Shown: positions 23,074 to 30,044 of the stretch, in pieces
How the letters are laid out: each line of letters opens with the position of its first letter
How positions within the stretch are numbered: position 1 is the first letter of the stretch
From: an uncultured bacterium
GTDB lineage: Bacteria; Verrucomicrobiota; Kiritimatiellia; CAIKKV01; CAITUY01
Direction of reading: 5' to 3'
DNA: 32,920 bases
Assembly (NCBI GenBank): GCA_903958395.1
Contig: CAJBSZ010000412.1
Location: 1-32,920, forward strand
The notes under the pieces: generated by a model
Databases searched by the model: none
The model's input: the letters and a program-made list of their open reading frames with translations, nothing else
What the model was told of the DNA's origin: nothing
Program-made: the position numbers and the translations under genes

Positions 23074-23155
23074 GGTGGACGCCGATCTCCGAGCGGCGTT
23101 CGGCGCAACCGAGAGGTGCCACGTGAATTACCGCGCCCGGAGGTCCCGGTCCACC
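23074..23155. repeat. GC-rich inverted-repeat element (REP/BIME-like)
   Basis: GGTGGAC at 23074-23080 and GTCCACC at 23149-23155 are perfect inverted arms of a compact GC-rich element. Inside, GGACGCCG (23077-23084) pairs with CGGCGTTC (23094-23101), one G-U, around a 9-base loop. It lies between the surface operon and the arsenic operon and may also terminate the former. It differs from the REP copies at 25369-26068. Confidence 0.55.
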
Positions 23156-23194: not shown

Positions 23195-23231
23195 TTGACC
23201 TTATGCGCATTATTGCATATTGTACCCTTCA
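23195..23231 (+). promoter_or_regulatory. arsR promoter with operator-like inverted repeat
   Basis: TTGACC at 23195-23200 and TATTGT at 23218-23223 are separated by exactly 17 bp. TATGC (23202-23206) and GCATA (23215-23219) form an inverted repeat over the spacer and -10, as expected for an ArsR site. Transcription would start near 23229-23231, at or next to the ATG, and no Shine-Dalgarno sequence is seen, so the message may be leaderless. Confidence 0.65.
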
Positions 23232-23548
23232 TGAATTACCAACAAGCAAAAGTTCGGGCAGACATTCTGAAGGCGCTGGCCCATCCGGTTCGTGTCCTGA
23301 TTGTCAGCGCGCTCACAGACAGTGACCAGTGCGTGTGTGAGTTGAATAAGCTGGCGGAAATTGATCAGTCGGGCCTGTCGCGGCATCTGGCGAACCTTAA
23401 AAAGGCAGGGATTGTAAGTGACCGTCGTGAGGGGATGAAGGTCTTCTACCATCTGGAAACGCCCTGTATTCTCAAAGCATTCGATTGCGCCGTGGATGTG
23501 ATTAAAGCGGATGTCAAACGAAGGAATGACTATCTCAAGGCGGTGTGA
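23231..23548 (+). CDS. arsR: ArsR-family arsenic-responsive repressor
   Basis: 105 residues, the usual size. A winged helix follows the ArsR pattern: LKALAHPVRVLIVSALTDSD, then C34-V-C36-EL in the position of the As(III)-binding CVC motif, then the recognition helix IDQSGLSRHLANLKKAGIVS and the wing RREGMKVFYHL. It should repress the operon from the site at 23202-23219 and release on As(III) or Sb(III). ATG 23231 is preferred because all upstream in-frame starts lie in the GC-rich repeat and would precede the promoter. It is followed at once by the permease gene. Confidence 0.92.
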   Translation: MNYQQAKVRADILKALAHPVRVLIVSALTDSDQCVCELNKLAEIDQSGLSRHLANLKKAGIVSDRREGMKVFYHLETPCILKAFDCAVDVIKADVKRRNDYLKAV

Positions 23549-23549
23549 T

Positions 23550-24590
23550 GTGAATAACCAGCATGAGGAAGACGTAAGTTTGTTGTTTCTCATCATGAAG
23601 GGAGTCGGGCTGCTCCTGCTTTGGGGAGTGGTGTACTGGAATCTGGAACCCTTTTCAGTCTGGTTGACGTCTGGCGTGCTGGGCTTACCGCCGGATCAGC
23701 ATTTCAGCACCGCTTTGCAGTTCTTTGTGTATGAGACGCCCAAGGTCTTGATGCTGTTGACTTTGATCGTGTTTGTGGTGGGCATCATTCGCTCGTTTTT
23801 CACACCAGAACGGACGCGCCGGATTCTGATGGGTAAACGCGAATCGGTGGGGAATGTCCTGGCCGCTTTACTGGGTATTGTGACGCCATTCTGTTCCTGC
23901 TCGGCCGTGCCGCTCTTTATCGGGTTTGTGACGGCGGGGATTCCTCTGGGGGTGACCCTGTCATTCCTGATTTCGGCGCCCATGGTGAACGAGATAGCTC
24001 TGGTTCTTCTGTTCGGCATGTTCGGCTGGAAGGTGGCCGCCATCTATCTGGGCATGGGCTTGACCATCGCCATGGTGGCGGGCTGGGTTATCGGTCGGTT
24101 GAAGATGGATCGGCATGTCGAGGACTGGGTTTATGCAACCGGTCCCGCGGCGGGGCTTGAAGATGAGAAACTTGATATCACCGCCCGTATCCAGCTCGGG
24201 CGTGATGCCGTGCGGGATATTGTGGGTAAGGTGTGGCTCTATGTCATGATCGGTATTGCCGTGGGGGCCGGGATTCATGGGTATGTGCCGACCAATGCGA
24301 TGGCCTCATTCATGGGAAAAGGGGCTTGGTGGAGCGTTCCGCTATCGGTGGTCATTGGTGTGCCGATGTATTCCAACGCGGCGGGCATCATTCCCATTGT
24401 GCAGGCCTTGCTGGGTAAAGGGGCAGCACTGGGGACGGTGCTGGCGTTCATGATGGCGGTGATTGCACTGTCCCTGCCGGAGGCGATCATTCTGCGCAAA
24501 GTGCTAAAACCCCGATTGCTCGCCGTTTTTTTTGGCGTGGTGGCGATGGGGATCATGGCGGTTGGCTATTTGTTCAATTTTATCATGTAG
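23550..24590 (+). CDS. ArsP-type permease (PF03773 family)
   Basis: 346 residues from GTG 23550, with AAGGCGG about 8 bp upstream; no ATG is closer than 23595. About eight to ten membrane helices are visible. The family motif TPFCSCSAVPLF is present with C115 and C117, and the second half has the matching GVPMYSNAAGIIPI. Members of this family include ArsP, which exports trivalent organoarsenicals such as methylarsenite. With ArsM at the end of the operon, export of methylated arsenic is the natural role; other permeases of the family have unknown substrates. Its start is 1 bp after the arsR stop. Confidence 0.85.
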   Translation: MNNQHEEDVSLLFLIMKGVGLLLLWGVVYWNLEPFSVWLTSGVLGLPPDQHFSTALQFFVYETPKVLMLLTLIVFVVGIIRSFFTPERTRRILMGKRESVGNVLAALLGIVTPFCSCSAVPLFIGFVTAGIPLGVTLSFLISAPMVNEIALVLLFGMFGWKVAAIYLGMGLTIAMVAGWVIGRLKMDRHVEDWVYATGPAAGLEDEKLDITARIQLGRDAVRDIVGKVWLYVMIGIAVGAGIHGYVPTNAMASFMGKGAWWSVPLSVVIGVPMYSNAAGIIPIVQALLGKGAALGTVLAFMMAVIALSLPEAIILRKVLKPRLLAVFFGVVAMGIMAVGYLFNFIM

Positions 24591-24639: not shown

Positions 24640-24870
24640 ATGAAAAAAATACAAATACTGGGAACGGGATGCGCGAAGTGTAAGACGCTGATGGCGAACA
24701 CGGAAGAGTCAGTCAAGGCGCTGGGAATCGAGGCCACCATCGAGAAAGTGGAAAAGATTCAGGATATTATGAAGTTTGGCGTGATGACGACCCCGGCGCT
24801 GGTAGTGGATGGGGTGGTGAAAAGCGCTGGTAAGGTGCTAAGTCCTGAGGACATCAAGAAGTTTCTGTAA
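24640..24870 (+). CDS. Small thioredoxin-like redox protein (GCAKC)
   Basis: 76 residues. It begins MKKIQILGTGCAKCKTLMAN, with C11-A-K-C14 as redox pair, and contains FGVMTTPALVVDG, which supplies the cis-Pro loop. This is the 'redox-active disulfide protein 2' / thioredoxin_3 type, cytoplasmic, often placed with ArsP-family permeases. It could reduce arsenic species or the permease's cysteines. ATG 24640 has AAAGGAAA upstream; an in-frame ATG at 24625 is less well placed. Confidence 0.85.
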   Translation: MKKIQILGTGCAKCKTLMANTEESVKALGIEATIEKVEKIQDIMKFGVMTTPALVVDGVVKSAGKVLSPEDIKKFL

Positions 24871-24884
24871 GATGAAAGGAAAAT

Positions 24885-25355
24885 ATGACTAACACTGCAG
24901 ACAGGAAAAATGAGGACGCGGCCTGTGGATGTGGGGGCGGAAGTTGTTGCAGCGGGCGGAGTAAGTGGATCTGGATTCTTTTGGCGTTGGCGGTCGCGGG
25001 GGTGTTGATTGCCAAGAATGCCTCGAAAAAGGATGCGCCACTGGATGTCCCGGCTATGAGTCAGATGAAGGCGCTCCCGCGCTTGGTTGATTTGGGTGCA
25101 GGGAAATGCATTCCCTGCAAGATGATGGCTCCCATCCTGGAAGATCTCAGGACGACACTCGCTGGTAAATTGGATGTTGAGTTTATTGACGTTTGGCAAA
25201 ACCCGGATGCGGGAAAGACATACGGGATCACTGTGATCCCGACCCAGATATTCTATGACGCCCGGGGCAAGGAGCTATTCCGTCATGAGGGGTTTTATGG
25301 CAAGGATGACATCCTGGCAAAGTGGAAAGAGTTCGGAGTCAATTTCGCCATGTAA
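24885..25355 (+). CDS. Membrane-anchored thioredoxin-domain protein
   Basis: 156 residues. The N-terminus is strikingly Cys-rich (ACGCGGGSCCSG), followed by one membrane helix (WIWILLALAVAGVLIA, about 27-43). The thioredoxin fold then has C75-I-P-C78 (GAGKCIPCKMMAPIL) and the cis-Pro strand VIPTQIFYDARG. The topology suggests a cytoplasmic Cys cluster and a periplasmic thioredoxin domain. CcdA, encoded after the transposon, could feed it electrons. The Cys cluster may bind As(III). Confidence 0.85.
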   Translation: MTNTADRKNEDAACGCGGGSCCSGRSKWIWILLALAVAGVLIAKNASKKDAPLDVPAMSQMKALPRLVDLGAGKCIPCKMMAPILEDLRTTLAGKLDVEFIDVWQNPDAGKTYGITVIPTQIFYDARGKELFRHEGFYGKDDILAKWKEFGVNFAM

Positions 25356-25368
25356 GCGATCCAGTTAT

Positions 25369-25499
25369 GGTAGGGCGAGGCGTCCCTGCCGAGCCGGCGA
25401 AAAGGTTTTCATGAAATGTGCCATAAAAATCAAAGGTCCCGACTGGCTCTTCATTGGGGCCTTTACTTGCTCCGGCTCAGCCGGAGGCTTCGCCCTACC
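25369..25499. repeat. Inverted REP pair (BIME-like)
   Basis: Two REP copies face each other at 25369-25396 and 25472-25499, separated by 75 bp. Their outer ends GGTAGGGCGA and TTCGCCCTACC pair, and each also has imperfect internal pairing. This is a typical substrate layout for REP-associated transposases and could also act as a transcript-stabilising or terminating structure between the thioredoxin gene and the transposase. Confidence 0.8.
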
Positions 25500-25535: not shown

Positions 25536-26108
25536 ATGACACAACAGGAAAACCTTCCACAGCGCCGTAAATTGCCGCATTTGATTCCGTCATGGGTCGG
25601 GCAAGGTGCGCGGCACTTTATTACCATTAATTGCCATGAGAGAGGTGTTGATCGCCTTTGTACTGGCAACGTGGCGACTGAGTTATTGAGCAGCGCTCGG
25701 CATTACGAAGAGATTGGCCATTGGTATTTGTGGTTAATGGTGGTCATGCCAGACCACGCGCATCTCATCGCCACATTCGACTTGGATCATGGACTTGATG
25801 CAACGGTGAAAAGCTGGAAGGGCTATCAGAAAAGAATGCTGCATGTTAAATGGCAGGCGGGTTACTTCGAGCACCGATTACGCAATGACGATGAGTTTGT
25901 CGAGAAGATGCATTATGTTCGTATGAATCCGGTCAGGAAAGAACTTGTGGCTTCGCCTGATGCCTGGCCGCATAGTTTGGTTCGCGCCGATATGGCTCCA
26001 GGATCGGTCTCGATTCAAGGTGGGGAGCCGTTTATTCGCGCGGCTCGGCAGGGACGCCTCGCCCTACCCGGAGAAGAAAAAAGAAAAGTGGAGGTCGCAG
26101 ATGTTTGA
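25536..26108 (+). CDS. REP-associated tyrosine transposase (Y1/HUH family)
   Basis: 190 residues. The Y1_Tnp fold is recognisable: ARHFITINCHERGVDRL, then WYLWLMVVMPDHAHLIATFD with the HUH-type pair H74-A-H76, the nucleophile Tyr97 in KSWKGYQKR, and FEHRLRNDDEFVEKMHYVRM followed by NPVRKELV. All catalytic residues appear present. It would nick and move single-stranded REP DNA. The last 20 or so codons run through a REP copy and into the start of ccdA, so the natural C-terminus may have been altered by the insertion or is simply read-through. Confidence 0.9.
   Translation: MTQQENLPQRRKLPHLIPSWVGQGARHFITINCHERGVDRLCTGNVATELLSSARHYEEIGHWYLWLMVVMPDHAHLIATFDLDHGLDATVKSWKGYQKRMLHVKWQAGYFEHRLRNDDEFVEKMHYVRMNPVRKELVASPDAWPHSLVRADMAPGSVSIQGGEPFIRAARQGRLALPGEEKRKVEVADV
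26041..26068 (-). repeat. REP copy, exact inverse of 25369-25396
   Basis: All 28 bases match the reverse complement of the upstream REP. It is translated as part of the transposase C-terminus (AARQGRLALPG). Perfect identity over 28 bp suggests recent or actively maintained mobility. Confidence 0.85.
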
Positions 26109-26802
26109 ACAATTATTCACTGAATTGTCACATGCCGTCGAAGGTTCTGCGGGGCTGGCTTTGACCGCCGCCTTTGTGTGGGGCGTGCTCAGCATTTTGC
26201 TTAGTCCCTGCCATTTGGCAAGTATCCCGCTGATCGTGGGGTTTATTGACCAGCAGGGCCGGATTACCACTCGCCGGGCGTTCACCATCTCGCTTCTGTT
26301 TGCGGTTGGCATCCTTATCACTATTGGCGTGATCGGGGCCATTACGGCGGCGGCCGGGCGGATGATGGGTGACGTGGGCCGCTGGGGAAACTACGCAGTG
26401 GCTGTCATTTTCTTCGTTGTCGGGCTTTACCTGCTTGATGTCATTCGCCTGCCCATGCCCGGGGCGGCCCAGCCGGGCATGAAGCGCAGGGGCATGTTGG
26501 CAGCACTTATTCTTGGCTTGGTATTCGGGATAGCGCTCGGCCCCTGCACCTTCGCCTTCATGGCCCCGATGCTGGCGGTGTCGTTTAAACTTGCGGCAAC
26601 AAATCTGACCTACGGTATACTGTTGCTTGTGCTCTATGGTGTGGGGCATTGCGCGGTGATAGTATTGGCCGGCACGTTTACCGAGGTGGTTCAGCACTAC
26701 CTGGATTGGAACGAGAAATCCAAAGGGGCAGTGATTTTGAAAAAGGTTTGTGGCATTCTTGTGTTGTTTGGTGGGCTTTACCTGATCTATACAGCGAGGT
26801 AA
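26101..26802 (+). CDS. CcdA/DsbD-like transmembrane thiol-electron carrier
   Basis: 233 residues from ATG 26101, with GGAGG 6 bp upstream. Six hydrophobic segments are visible. The paired membrane cysteines of the family are present: C37 in LSPCHLASIP and C149 in GPCTFAFMAP. CcdA proteins carry electrons from cytoplasmic thioredoxin across the membrane. The likely acceptor here is the anchored thioredoxin encoded at 24885. Its start overlaps the transposase end by 8 bp, a by-product of the insertion. Confidence 0.9.
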   Translation: MFEQLFTELSHAVEGSAGLALTAAFVWGVLSILLSPCHLASIPLIVGFIDQQGRITTRRAFTISLLFAVGILITIGVIGAITAAAGRMMGDVGRWGNYAVAVIFFVVGLYLLDVIRLPMPGAAQPGMKRRGMLAALILGLVFGIALGPCTFAFMAPMLAVSFKLAATNLTYGILLLVLYGVGHCAVIVLAGTFTEVVQHYLDWNEKSKGAVILKKVCGILVLFGGLYLIYTAR

Positions 26803-26804
26803 CG

Positions 26805-27482
26805 ATGATTAAGGCAACGCCGCATCCCAATTATCCTGCCGAGGCGGGTCGATATGTCCGGGGCAATGATGCCTCTCCGGTGGCCTTGGCCATTGTCCTC
26901 AACACGGATGAGGATAAGATCCCGCCCGATCTGGAGAGACTTGTACGAGTAGGAGCGGAAAACGGGGCGGCCTTGGCTGGCACCGTGCAGACCCCCAATA
27001 TTGGCTTCGAGAAGATTATCTGCAACATCGTTGGTAATCCGAACATCCGGTACCTCGTCCTGGGCGGGCCGGAATCCCCCGGACATCATACCGGGTCCTC
27101 ACTCAAGGCGCTCTTCGCAAATGGGGTGGATGACCGGAAGCGTATCGTGGGGACTGATGCCGCACATGCGGTGCTCCACAACATTCCGGCGGAGTTCATT
27201 CTACGGGTTCTGCAACAGGTGACGCTTATCGATATGCAGTTCGAGCCGGAGCAAGCGATCCGGGACGCGGTTCGTGCCTGTTATCAGGAAGAGCCGGTTC
27301 CGTTCAGGGGTTACTCACTTTGGGATCCAGGTCCGTTCTCCGAACCGCCGTTGGACGGGCGGATTACCTGGCGTGTGACTCAGCCTTGGTCGGAGCCGGA
27401 TAATGACGCGGAACGTGCGGCACTTGACCGGGCAAAAGCGCTTATGGAAAAGCTGAAAGCCAGGAAAGTTAGCAAGCTATGA
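26805..27482 (+). CDS. MtrA-like protein (tetrahydromethanopterin S-methyltransferase subunit A family)
   Basis: 225 residues, ATG 26805, 2 bp after the ccdA stop. The MtrA family core is clear: VALAIVLNT near the start, TPNIGFEKIICNIVGNPNIR, then YLVLGGPESPGHHTGSSLKA (H94/H95) and VDDRKRIVGTDAAHAVLHNI followed by VLQQVTLIDMQ. In methanogens MtrA is the corrinoid-carrying subunit of a methyl transfer complex; the corrinoid-ligand His lies in this part of the protein. There is no membrane anchor and no other Mtr subunit. In an arsenic-methylation operon, a role in methyl or corrinoid chemistry is tempting but unproven. Confidence 0.75.
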   Translation: MIKATPHPNYPAEAGRYVRGNDASPVALAIVLNTDEDKIPPDLERLVRVGAENGAALAGTVQTPNIGFEKIICNIVGNPNIRYLVLGGPESPGHHTGSSLKALFANGVDDRKRIVGTDAAHAVLHNIPAEFILRVLQQVTLIDMQFEPEQAIRDAVRACYQEEPVPFRGYSLWDPGPFSEPPLDGRITWRVTQPWSEPDNDAERAALDRAKALMEKLKARKVSKL

Positions 27483-27655
27483 TTATGATTAATCTCACGG
27501 AGGAAGATGTGGTGCGACTGACGGCGATTCAGATGGATCACGATGCACAGGAAGCCTTGGCGTTTATCCGGGAACGCATTCTGCCGGAAATTCTACACCA
27601 GAAGGGGGCCCGTATAAAAGGCCCCCTTGACGGAGGAACGGGGAGTTTGCGGTAA
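27479..27655 (+). CDS. 58-residue micro-ORF between the MtrA-like gene and arsM
   Basis: ATG 27479 overlaps the MtrA-like stop (ATGA); an in-frame ATG lies at 27485. The product is acidic-helical (MINLTEEDVVRLTAIQMDHD, then AQEALAFIRERILPEIL) and ends in a Gly-rich tail. Its 3' part contains a 9-bp hairpin, and its stop is 17 bp before arsM. I do not recognise a family. The coupling and helical first 45 residues support a real gene. Confidence 0.6.
   Translation: MIMINLTEEDVVRLTAIQMDHDAQEALAFIRERILPEILHQKGARIKGPLDGGTGSLR
27602..27628 (+). terminator. Strong hairpin upstream of arsM (attenuator or processing site)
   Basis: AAGGGGGCC (27602-27610) and GGCCCCCTT (27620-27628) form a perfect 9-bp stem with loop CGTATAAAA. 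No T-run follows (GACGG), so it is not a classical intrinsic terminator. It sits inside the micro-ORF, 45 bp before arsM, where it could tune arsM expression by attenuation, RNA stability or ribosome passage. Confidence 0.5.
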
Positions 27656-27672
27656 GGATTGGAGGAAACATT

Positions 27673-28524
27673 ATGACAGATAAAAAACACAAAGTTAGAG
27701 AGTCGGTGCGAAAGGGATATGCAGCTATAGCCAAGGGCAGGGGATCATGTTGTGGCCCGTCCTCGACTTGCTGCGGGACAAAGGCGTCTCATGAAGTCGC
27801 CAAGAGCGTCGGTTACTCGGATGCCGACCTGGCAACCCTTCCAGAGGGTGCCAACATGGGACTTTCGTGCGGGAACCCAGGGGCAATCGCTGCGCTTAAA
27901 CCGGGCGAGGTAGTGCTGGATCTCGGCAGCGGAGGAGGCTTTGACGTATTTCTTGTGGCGCAACAAGTGGGGGCCAAAGGGCGGGCGATTGGTGTAGACA
28001 TGACCCCGGAAATGCTCGGGAAAGCCCGCTCAAATGCCGAGTTGTTTAAAAAACAGACGAAGTTGGGCAACGTTGAGTTCCGGCTGGGCGAGATCGAGCA
28101 CCTGCCTGTGGCAGATGCCAGCGTGGATGTGGTTATTTCAAACTGCGTAATCAACCTCTCCCCCGACAAGCCTCAAGTTTGGCGTGAAATATCCCGTATT
28201 CTCAAGCCCGGCGGACGGGTGGCGGTTTCAGATTTGGCTTTGCTCAAGCGGCTTCCAAGGAAGATTCTGGTGTCCATTGAGGCCTTGGTGGGTTGTGTTG
28301 CTGGTGCAGTACTGGTGGATGAGACCCGGGCCATGGCGAAAGCGGCTGGCCTGGCGGCGATCACGTTAACACCGAAGCCTGGGTATGTGGATAATATGGT
28401 GGATTGGAACGATCCGCTTTATCGGGGCATCCTCAAACGCCTTCCAAAAGGAGCGAAACTGAGCCATTATGTTGCGAGCATCAATGTCGAGGCACGCAAA
28501 CCAGTCAGGGGTAAGAAACGATGA
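27673..28524 (+). CDS. arsM: Arsenite S-adenosylmethionine methyltransferase
   Basis: 283 residues, ATG 27673 with GGAGG upstream. The N-terminus has the usual Cys-rich SCCGPSSTCCG. The class I methyltransferase core has VLDLGSGGGFDVFLVAQQVG (SAM-binding) and VDMTPEML. Three conserved arsenic-binding cysteines are present: C66 (GLSCGNP), C158 (ISNCVINLSPD) and C208 (GCVAGA). It methylates As(III) to methyl- and dimethylarsenicals using thiols. As last gene of the operon it pairs with the ArsP-type permease. No arsC, arsB or acr3 is present in this cluster. Confidence 0.95.
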   Translation: MTDKKHKVRESVRKGYAAIAKGRGSCCGPSSTCCGTKASHEVAKSVGYSDADLATLPEGANMGLSCGNPGAIAALKPGEVVLDLGSGGGFDVFLVAQQVGAKGRAIGVDMTPEMLGKARSNAELFKKQTKLGNVEFRLGEIEHLPVADASVDVVISNCVINLSPDKPQVWREISRILKPGGRVAVSDLALLKRLPRKILVSIEALVGCVAGAVLVDETRAMAKAAGLAAITLTPKPGYVDNMVDWNDPLYRGILKRLPKGAKLSHYVASINVEARKPVRGKKR

Positions 28525-29130: not shown

Positions 29131-30024
29131 TTACTTCTGTGTATCGTCGATAGAGGTGATGGGCGATGCAGGTTCTGTTTCAGGCGCTTCTGGAATGGTC
29201 TCTTGAGTTGGGAGTATTGTGTGTGGCGGTTCGATGACGACCGGTTCTGGCTCCAGTGTCATAGCTGGCGGCGTGGTTTCGGGCACAACTACGGGCGGTG
29301 GCGGTATTAAAGGTGGTGAGGTCGGAGGCGGTGTCGCGATGACCGGTTTCGTGATGATTCCTGGTTGCGGCTGTTGTGCATGCGTGGTTGGTGTGATGGG
29401 TGTAATCGACTCTGCTACTACTGGCGAAGGGGTCTCTGTTACCGGTGTTGCCACAGGATTGCTCTGTGCGTCCTGCTCCACGCACTCACCATTCAATACA
29501 TTTACCACGGCCTTGGCTGCACCAGCCCATAACACGATGACTGGGCGTGTTCCTGCCACCGTTTTCAAAACAGTGGGATAGAGGGTGGGACAGCAAAGGA
29601 GTCCTGCGACCCCAGCGGTCAGCAACTCGGCAACGCGCGCTTGGCCGGCTTCAGGATCGTCGGGAACCGTAATAACGATCAACCGGTACCCCGCTCTCGT
29701 GAGAACAGGATCGAGACTGGGAATCAAGGCTAGGGCGTCAGTCGGGCTGGTCGTTGAGAGCACGAGGCAAATGAAGTTGGCCAGTTTCCTGGAAGCTTCT
29801 TGATTAGGAAGATTCGGCCCAAGGCCGGTGCCCCTGCCGAGAGAAATATTCTGGGCGAGCAGGTTTGTCTGGTAACCTAGCTGCTGTGCCACGGCAAGCA
29901 CGCGCGCCTGGGTGGTCGGGCAAATCCGGGTGCTATTTCCCTTCCCATTGATGACCCGTGATACGGTAGATTTCGAGACACAAGCGGCCGCTGCGACATC
30001 CTTTATACTTACTGAAGTGCTCAT
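29131..30024 (-). CDS. Second LacI-type HTH protein with half sensor and Pro-rich tail
   Basis: 297 residues from the ATG at 30022-30024 (reverse strand). The upstream ATG at 30042 lies in the conserved operator, and AGG precedes the chosen start. Residues 6-27 are a LacI HTH (SIKDVAAAACVSKSTVSRVI). Residues about 81-180 parallel the single sensor lobe of the protein at 1228-2910, sharing YRLIVITVPDDPE, GLLCCPTLYP and [12 protein letters not shown] Pro-rich tail of about 105 residues follows, much shorter than the paralogue's and without its tandem units. It is divergent from hsdM (123 bp between starts) and likely represses itself and possibly hsdM from the shared intergenic region. It is an intact paralogue, not a fragment. 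Confidence 0.8.
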   Translation of the reverse strand: MSTSVSIKDVAAAACVSKSTVSRVINGKGNSTRICPTTQARVLAVAQQLGYQTNLLAQNISLGRGTGLGPNLPNQEASRKLANFICLVLSTTSPTDALALIPSLDPVLTRAGYRLIVITVPDDPEAGQARVAELLTAGVAGLLCCPTLYPTVLKTVAGTRPVIVLWAGAAKAVVNVLNGECVEQDAQSNPVATPVTETPSPVVAESITPITPTTHAQQPQPGIITKPVIATPPPTSPPLIPPPPVVVPETTPPAMTLEPEPVVIEPPHTILPTQETIPEAPETEPASPITSIDDTQK

Positions 30025-30044
30025 GCGCAACCTGTTTAGCATTG
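30025..30044. repeat. 20-bp direct repeat, promoter-side copy
   Basis: Identical to 29110-29129 and 915 bp away. Read on the minus strand it is CAATGCTAAACAGGTTGCGC, directly before the start codon. The corresponding segment of the first paralogue (1208-1227) differs at only a few positions, so this is a conserved leader/operator element that is also duplicated behind this gene. Confidence 0.85.

Follow-up and report, generated by a model that had tools for sequence, protein, structure and literature searches.

A soluble MtrA-like protein encoded in an arsenic operon of an uncultured bacterium was found to belong to a family that recurs in arsenic clusters across distant taxa, and it probably works as a corrinoid protein in arsenic handling. 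The window, which is the whole stretch of DNA analysed, comprises 32,920 nucleotides of contig CAJBSZ010000412.1 (GCA_903958395.1). In flooded soils, the amount of toxic methylarsenic reaching rice depends on how arsenic is methylated and demethylated, and the dedicated enzymes known are ArsM, which depends on S-adenosylmethionine (SAM), and ArsI, which needs oxygen. We know of no settled enzyme for anaerobic demethylation, and corrinoid methylation of arsenic has, to our knowledge, been seen as a side reaction. A conserved cobalamin-type protein in ars operons, found in organisms that lack a clear ArsM and commonly encode HgcA, supplies a named candidate gene that makes this question of corrinoid-dependent, anaerobic arsenic chemistry testable, and it hints at an undescribed B12-dependent step in arsenic handling by microbes living without oxygen. 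The fold and the cofactor family are known, and bacterial and archaeal MtrA homologues with a conserved His were noted in 2016. The clade in ars clusters, spanning two domains and co-occurring with HgcA, appears to be unreported, and the searchable literature yielded no paper on arsenic that connects MtrA with arsM, acr3 or hgcA.

Organization of the arsenic operon

The genes of the operon are all on the forward strand, in the order arsR-arsP-trx-trx-[transposase]-ccdA-mtrA-orf58-arsM. The first encodes an arsR/smtB-type regulator (23231..23548; PF01022, 4.5e-14; NF033788, 81.6 bits against a cut-off of 55), whose open frame starts at 23075 and whose domain fits the internal ATG at 23231. It is followed by genes for an ArsP-type permease (23511..24590; PF03773, 259.6 bits against a Pfam cut-off of 32.3), which scores under the SaoE cut-off of NCBIfam, for an ArsE/MTH895-type small thioredoxin (24640..24870; TIGR00412, 107.5 bits against 62), and for a membrane-anchored thioredoxin (24885..25355; PF00085, 1.8e-11). 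A REP-associated tyrosine transposase (25536..26108; NF047646, 81.6 against a cut-off of 80) interrupts the operon between trx and ccdA, and its flanking REP arms (25369-25396 and 26041-26068) form a perfect 28-bp inverted repeat. The 22-bp REP core was present in 25 copies in the host genome at no more than one mismatch (10 forward, 15 reverse), as compared with 0 copies of a reversed control pattern.

The ccdA/DsbD-type membrane protein (26101..26802; PF02683, 1e-12) is ArsG-like but falls below the ArsG model (NF040495, 53 bits, cut-off 200). Only 2 nt after its stop codon (26802), the mtrA-like ORF begins with an ATG at 26805 and ends with a TGA at 27482, encoding 225 aa. Its stop overlaps the start of a 58-aa small ORF (27479..27655) in a shared ATGA, and 17 nt separate the small ORF from arsM (27673..28524), which encodes an arsenite S-adenosylmethionine methyltransferase (NF008823, 314 bits against 263). 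A reading made from the sequence alone (hereafter the sequence-only reading) had described a soluble MtrA relative lying between ccdA and arsM and ATGA-coupled to a 58-residue ORF, and the coordinates agree with that description.

The MtrA-like protein is predicted to have the MtrA cobalamin fold

The protein matches the Pfam MtrA family PF04208 over residues 3-167 (115.3 bits against a gathering cut-off of 25, 3e-33) and passes the NCBIfam soluble-subfamily model NF002126 (170.4 bits against 161). It does not reach the methanogen equivalog TIGR01111 (111 bits against 249). No C-terminal membrane helix was detected in it (top 19-residue Kyte-Doolittle mean 0.93), nor was there a Pfam match to PF03599, so it has no HgcA-type CdhD domain. 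AlphaFold2 modelling on an alignment of 67 sequences gave a pLDDT of 90.6. In a Foldseek search of the PDB, MtrA chains were the sole hits below E=0.001, the first being 5laa (E=1.7e-17), the cobalamin complex of a soluble M. fervidus MtrA homologue, on which the model reached a TM-score of 0.93 on the target length. With this model, the MtrA cobalamin fold is predicted with confidence.

The protein has in common with MtrA of the Mtr complex (PF04208, TIGR01111) the fold, the His ligand and the residues of the nucleotide-tail pocket. It differs in that it is encoded in an arsenic operon, carries no transmembrane helix, has Pro in place of Glu54, an altered meander and a C-terminal segment of its own, and comes from a host without MtrH. 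The cytoplasmic MtrA homologues (NF002126; 5laa) are soluble like the window protein, which passes the cut-off of NF002126 and has 5laa as its best structure match. However, 5laa comes from a methanogen and is almost the same as the MtrA of that organism, whereas the ars family forms a separate, long-branched clade.

Cobalamin-site residues are largely conserved

In 5laa, His84 is the cobalt ligand, contacts to the nucleotide tail come from Asp17-N, Lys52-N, Thr53, Gly57-O and Asn64, and Tyr18 and Val61 enclose the base from either side (PMC4915002). The GHHTG region, which the sequence-only reading had described as kept, is present in the window protein, and its first His (H94) aligns with His84 and is the predicted lower Co ligand. 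Residues were counted, in 5laa numbering, over 81 sequences, namely the window protein and the best 80 of 450 relatives. Gly57 and Asn64 were found in 81/81, His84 and Thr53 each in 80/81, and position 18 was Tyr in 71/81 and Phe in 9/81. Position 52, a Lys in 5laa, is now Gln, and the contact made there in 5laa is through the backbone. Glu54, which hydrogen-bonds and steers the His ligand in MtrA, was replaced in 29 of the same 81 sequences (Glu 52/81, Pro 22/81 including the window protein, Ala 7/81). The GAIP(Y/F)xEN meander was also altered, reading DAAHAVLHN in the window and taking other forms, such as APHPFLFN, elsewhere. A His at position 111 was considered as compensating for the lost Glu54 and was rejected, the states at 54 and 111 being uncoupled by eye.

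These patterns indicate that the cobamide pocket is preserved and that drift has occurred in the elements presumed to transmit the movement of the His in Mtr. The kept site residues and the predicted fold both suggest that the protein binds a cobamide. The drift, together with the frequency of thioredoxin-like genes among the neighbours, would also fit a protein that has lost the cobamide and whose fold now binds arsenite or serves as a redox partner of the thioredoxin and CcdA proteins of the cluster. We consider this quite improbable, as the His ligand and the nucleotide-tail pocket are nearly invariant and the family lacks a multi-Cys site. The only conserved Cys standing out in the family were C73 and C159, and no obvious metal or arsenic site was seen in it.

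The MtrA-like family recurs in arsenic clusters

A scan of the genome collection with a five-sequence alignment yielded 450 relatives, of which the best 80 by similarity to the query were kept. Since these were chosen for likeness to the query, Spirochaetota were taken as a less biased sample. The carriers among the best 80 of 450 were members of Spirochaetota, Methanobacteriota (Methanoregulaceae and others), Chloroflexota, Actinomycetota, Thermodesulfobacteriota, Planctomycetota, Nitrospirota, Kiritimatiellota, Aerophobota and further phyla. A locus was counted as an arsenic cluster if a core ars gene, or at least two ars-type genes, lay within 6 kb. By this rule, 52/80 homologue loci (best 80 of 450), spread over about ten bacterial and archaeal phyla, were arsenic clusters; the 28 loci without one included some short contigs. 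In the same set, the neighbours within 6 kb were ACR3 (41/80), ArsR (39), the ArsE-type thioredoxin (37), ArsP (35), DGC (24), CcdA (19), LMW-type ArsC (17), ArsM (10) and ArsA (3). For one member, the ACR3 identity was confirmed with TIGR00832 (455 bits, cut-off 283). The phylogenetic tree placed every ars-linked row in one clade of 74 rows (SH-aLRT 97%), 53 of them ars-linked with the window included, and all seven sequences outside the clade were unlinked.

The family was found in 11/247 Spirochaetota genomes, a count that leaves out a twelfth, partial match. ACR3 was encoded somewhere in the genome of 10/11 carriers, and in 8/11 it lay within about 2.5 kb of the MtrA-like gene, for which the chance under random placement is about 4e-20. 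The MtrA-like family is therefore a real, recurrent component of arsenic clusters across distant taxa, and the proposed tie between a corrinoid-type protein and arsenic handling is well supported by both the linkage and the kept cobalamin residues.

Within the phylum of the window, the gene was present in 1/388 genomes, which suggests that it was probably acquired here by transfer. The host genome carries ACR3 and ArsC on a different contig without an MtrA-like gene, and no second MtrA was found in it. Probable transfer would suit a neutral passenger hitchhiking on mobile ars clusters, but this explanation has very little to recommend it and is the least probable of those considered, because among the best 80 of 450 the linkage recurs over about ten phyla with varying gene order, and a labelled ars-cluster gene often lies close by on the same strand (within 250 bp at 41/80 loci). 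No close relatives were found in viral contigs by the scan or in phages by tblastn, and the plasmid search returned larger MtrA-domain relatives only, those of Planococcus being fused to DUF4346. Some of the MtrA-like proteins outside the ars clade (L073, L074, L078, L079 and L080, together with L075) have a C-terminal or adjacent Cys-containing domain without a Pfam match, and a membrane protein with an SCCGAP motif is encoded near two of them (L075 and L078).

The link with ArsM is incidental

The sequence-only reading had seen, in the position beside arsM, a hint of an unrecognised step such as methyl donation or organoarsenical handling. The operon common to both genes in the window is consistent with a protein that donates methyl groups to ArsM or assists it, and arsM does co-occur elsewhere, near 10/80 homologues (best 80 of 450). 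However, ArsM takes its methyl group from S-adenosylmethionine and therefore needs no corrinoid donor. ArsM scored over its curated cut-off in 20/247 Spirochaetota genomes and in 0/11 carriers, an absence that is not statistically significant (p=0.6). The MtrA-like family is thus kept without ArsM in these carriers, and as arsM is also rare near the homologues, its link with the family is incidental while that with arsenic is real. The partnership with ArsM is accordingly very unlikely, although the arsenic part of the earlier proposal holds and cobalamin binding is predicted. ArsM (NF008823) resembles the MtrA-like protein as its neighbour in the window and in performing methyl chemistry on arsenic, but it is SAM-dependent, belongs to an unrelated family and is rarely co-located.

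Carriers frequently encode HgcA and other corrinoid proteins

HgcA is the mercury-methylating corrinoid protein. It was found over the curated cut-off in 24/51 carrier genomes (50 reached via the family loci, plus the host). In four cases it was encoded in the same cluster (L018:887-2125, L029:9124-10194, L033:4710-5759 and L036:10924-12009; 392-443 bits against 275) together with ACR3 and the MtrA-like gene, and in L036 an hgcB-like ferredoxin frame adjoins it. A CdhD match among the cluster neighbours, considered as a hidden methyltransferase, turned out to be HgcA. Among Spirochaetota, HgcA was present in 7/11 carriers and 31/236 others (p=2.5e-4) and a match of the type of CFeSP, a corrinoid protein of the acetyl-CoA pathway, in 8/11 and 19/236 (p=1e-6), in tests that ignore phylogeny; the enrichment could reflect a shared anoxic habitat. 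In the 247 Spirochaetota genomes, HgcA (38) and ArsM (20) never occurred together (p=0.05, phylogeny ignored).

The location of hgcAB beside ars genes has been reported (PMC7438021), and the part of that paper treating hgcAB-ars contains no mention of an MtrA-like gene. The family adds one more corrinoid element to this recognised linkage. HgcA (NF040863) is likewise a corrinoid protein, linked to arsR, acr3 and arsC (PMC7438021), and it co-occurs with the MtrA-like protein in hosts with corrinoid-methyl metabolism. It differs in its unrelated domain (CdhD plus a membrane part), and the MtrA-like protein has no HgcB-type partner.

The host genome has no HgcA over the cut-off. It does encode a full acs cluster, comprising CODH, ACS, both CFeSP subunits, RACo and a pterin-binding methyltransferase, and 17 classical B12-binding domains. 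The co-occurrence with HgcA and CFeSP is what would be expected if the protein, without acting on arsenic itself, stored, delivered or guarded cobamide for proteins such as HgcA, CFeSP or MetH during arsenic stress. Its form as a small, soluble cobamide-binding domain, with the corrin ring exposed in the homologue, would also suit such a role. This explanation is rather unlikely, since it is arsenic genes that recur nearby, the top neighbour families include none for cobamide transport or synthesis, and about half of the carriers have no HgcA.

A possible corrinoid-dependent arsenic biotransformation

It is close to an even chance that the family marks a second dedicated, corrinoid-dependent arsenic biotransformation in anaerobes beside ArsM/ArsI, either methylation or demethylation, whose MtrA-derived carrier accompanies acr3 in both Bacteria and Archaea and lies in clusters together with HgcA. 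Our tentative model, to which we give somewhat less than an even chance, is a soluble corrinoid carrier with the MtrA fold that methylates thiol-bound As(III) in the ars clusters of anaerobes. The protein would hold the cobamide base-off with H94 below the cobalt, and cob(I)amide would receive a methyl group from the acetyl-CoA pathway, through its methyl branch, or from another methyltetrahydrofolate methyltransferase. From the exposed methyl-Co(III) face, the methyl group would then pass to thiol-bound As(III), giving methylarsenite, which might exit via ArsP-type permeases while unmethylated As(III) would leave via ACR3. The role of such a protein towards arsenic would match that of HgcA towards mercury, and ArsM would not be required.

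That the protein works specifically by methylating As(III) is plausible but falls a little further short of even. The direction is slightly favoured by the frequency of ArsP partners, by the parallel with HgcA, and by two known reactions: arsenite is methylated non-enzymatically by methylcobalamin in the presence of glutathione (Zakharyan and Aposhian 1999, as given in PMC6950371), and the methanogen MtaA methylates arsenic from methylcobalamin (PMC13262295). Counting against the model are the replacement of Glu54 by Pro, the altered meander, the lack of an obvious arsenic or metal site and the 28/80 unlinked loci (best 80 of 450). In addition, no methyltransferase that would charge the protein was found beside the mtrA-like gene, and the host genome had no match to MtrH (PF02007).

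The main rival is the reverse reaction, in which the corrinoid protein would take methyl groups from methylarsenicals and be the anaerobic equivalent of ArsI, the C-As lyase that depends on oxygen, and As(III) would be pumped out by ACR3 while the methyl group entered one-carbon metabolism. Among the best 80 of 450, no partner is as common as ACR3, which would export the product, and arsM is seldom present; 0/11 Spirochaetota carriers have a clear ArsM. Anaerobic demethylation of DMA has no known enzyme; methylotrophic methanogens carry it out with enzymes that are unclear and for which corrinoid proteins have been proposed (PMC10579292), and methanogens are frequent among the carriers. We nevertheless regard demethylation as unlikely, because no recurrent substrate methyltransferase of the MtaB/MttB type stands out among the top Pfam neighbour families of the cluster, and the window cluster itself carries arsM, a maker of methylarsenicals.

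Other MtrA-domain proteins and small ORFs

The MtrA-domain proteins of Planococcus plasmids and a Paraburkholderia replicon share with the window protein a metal-related context, which is a heavy-metal ATPase with an ArsR/SmtB regulator on Planococcus pA30H1 and a MerR-type regulator in Paraburkholderia. They differ in being larger, with a Cys-rich N-terminal part, and the Planococcus ones are fused to PterinBD-DUF4346. MtrA-domain proteins with Cys-rich N-terminal parts were observed at L003:464-1840, L005:7350-8729 and L004:7569-8750, in a heavy-metal-ATPase plasmid cluster or next to a MerR-type regulator.

In the window, an ORF at 29131-30042 has a LacI DNA-binding head and, after it, a tail rich in proline and threonine. 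No forward terminator was found at the end of the 58-aa ORF, where a GC-rich stem scored no better than shuffles (z -1.5). The 58-aa ORF has no Pfam or NCBIfam match, and jackhmmer retrieved diverged relatives of it in eight other loci (L008, L011, L016, L021, L023, L035, L058 and L067), mostly arsenic clusters. A specific pairing with mtrA was rejected, as relatives occur elsewhere in ars clusters. The frames span about 55-100 aa and have a common DxDxxxALxF-type core, and the existence of these relatives indicates that the ORF is a real small protein of an unnamed family found mostly in ars clusters.
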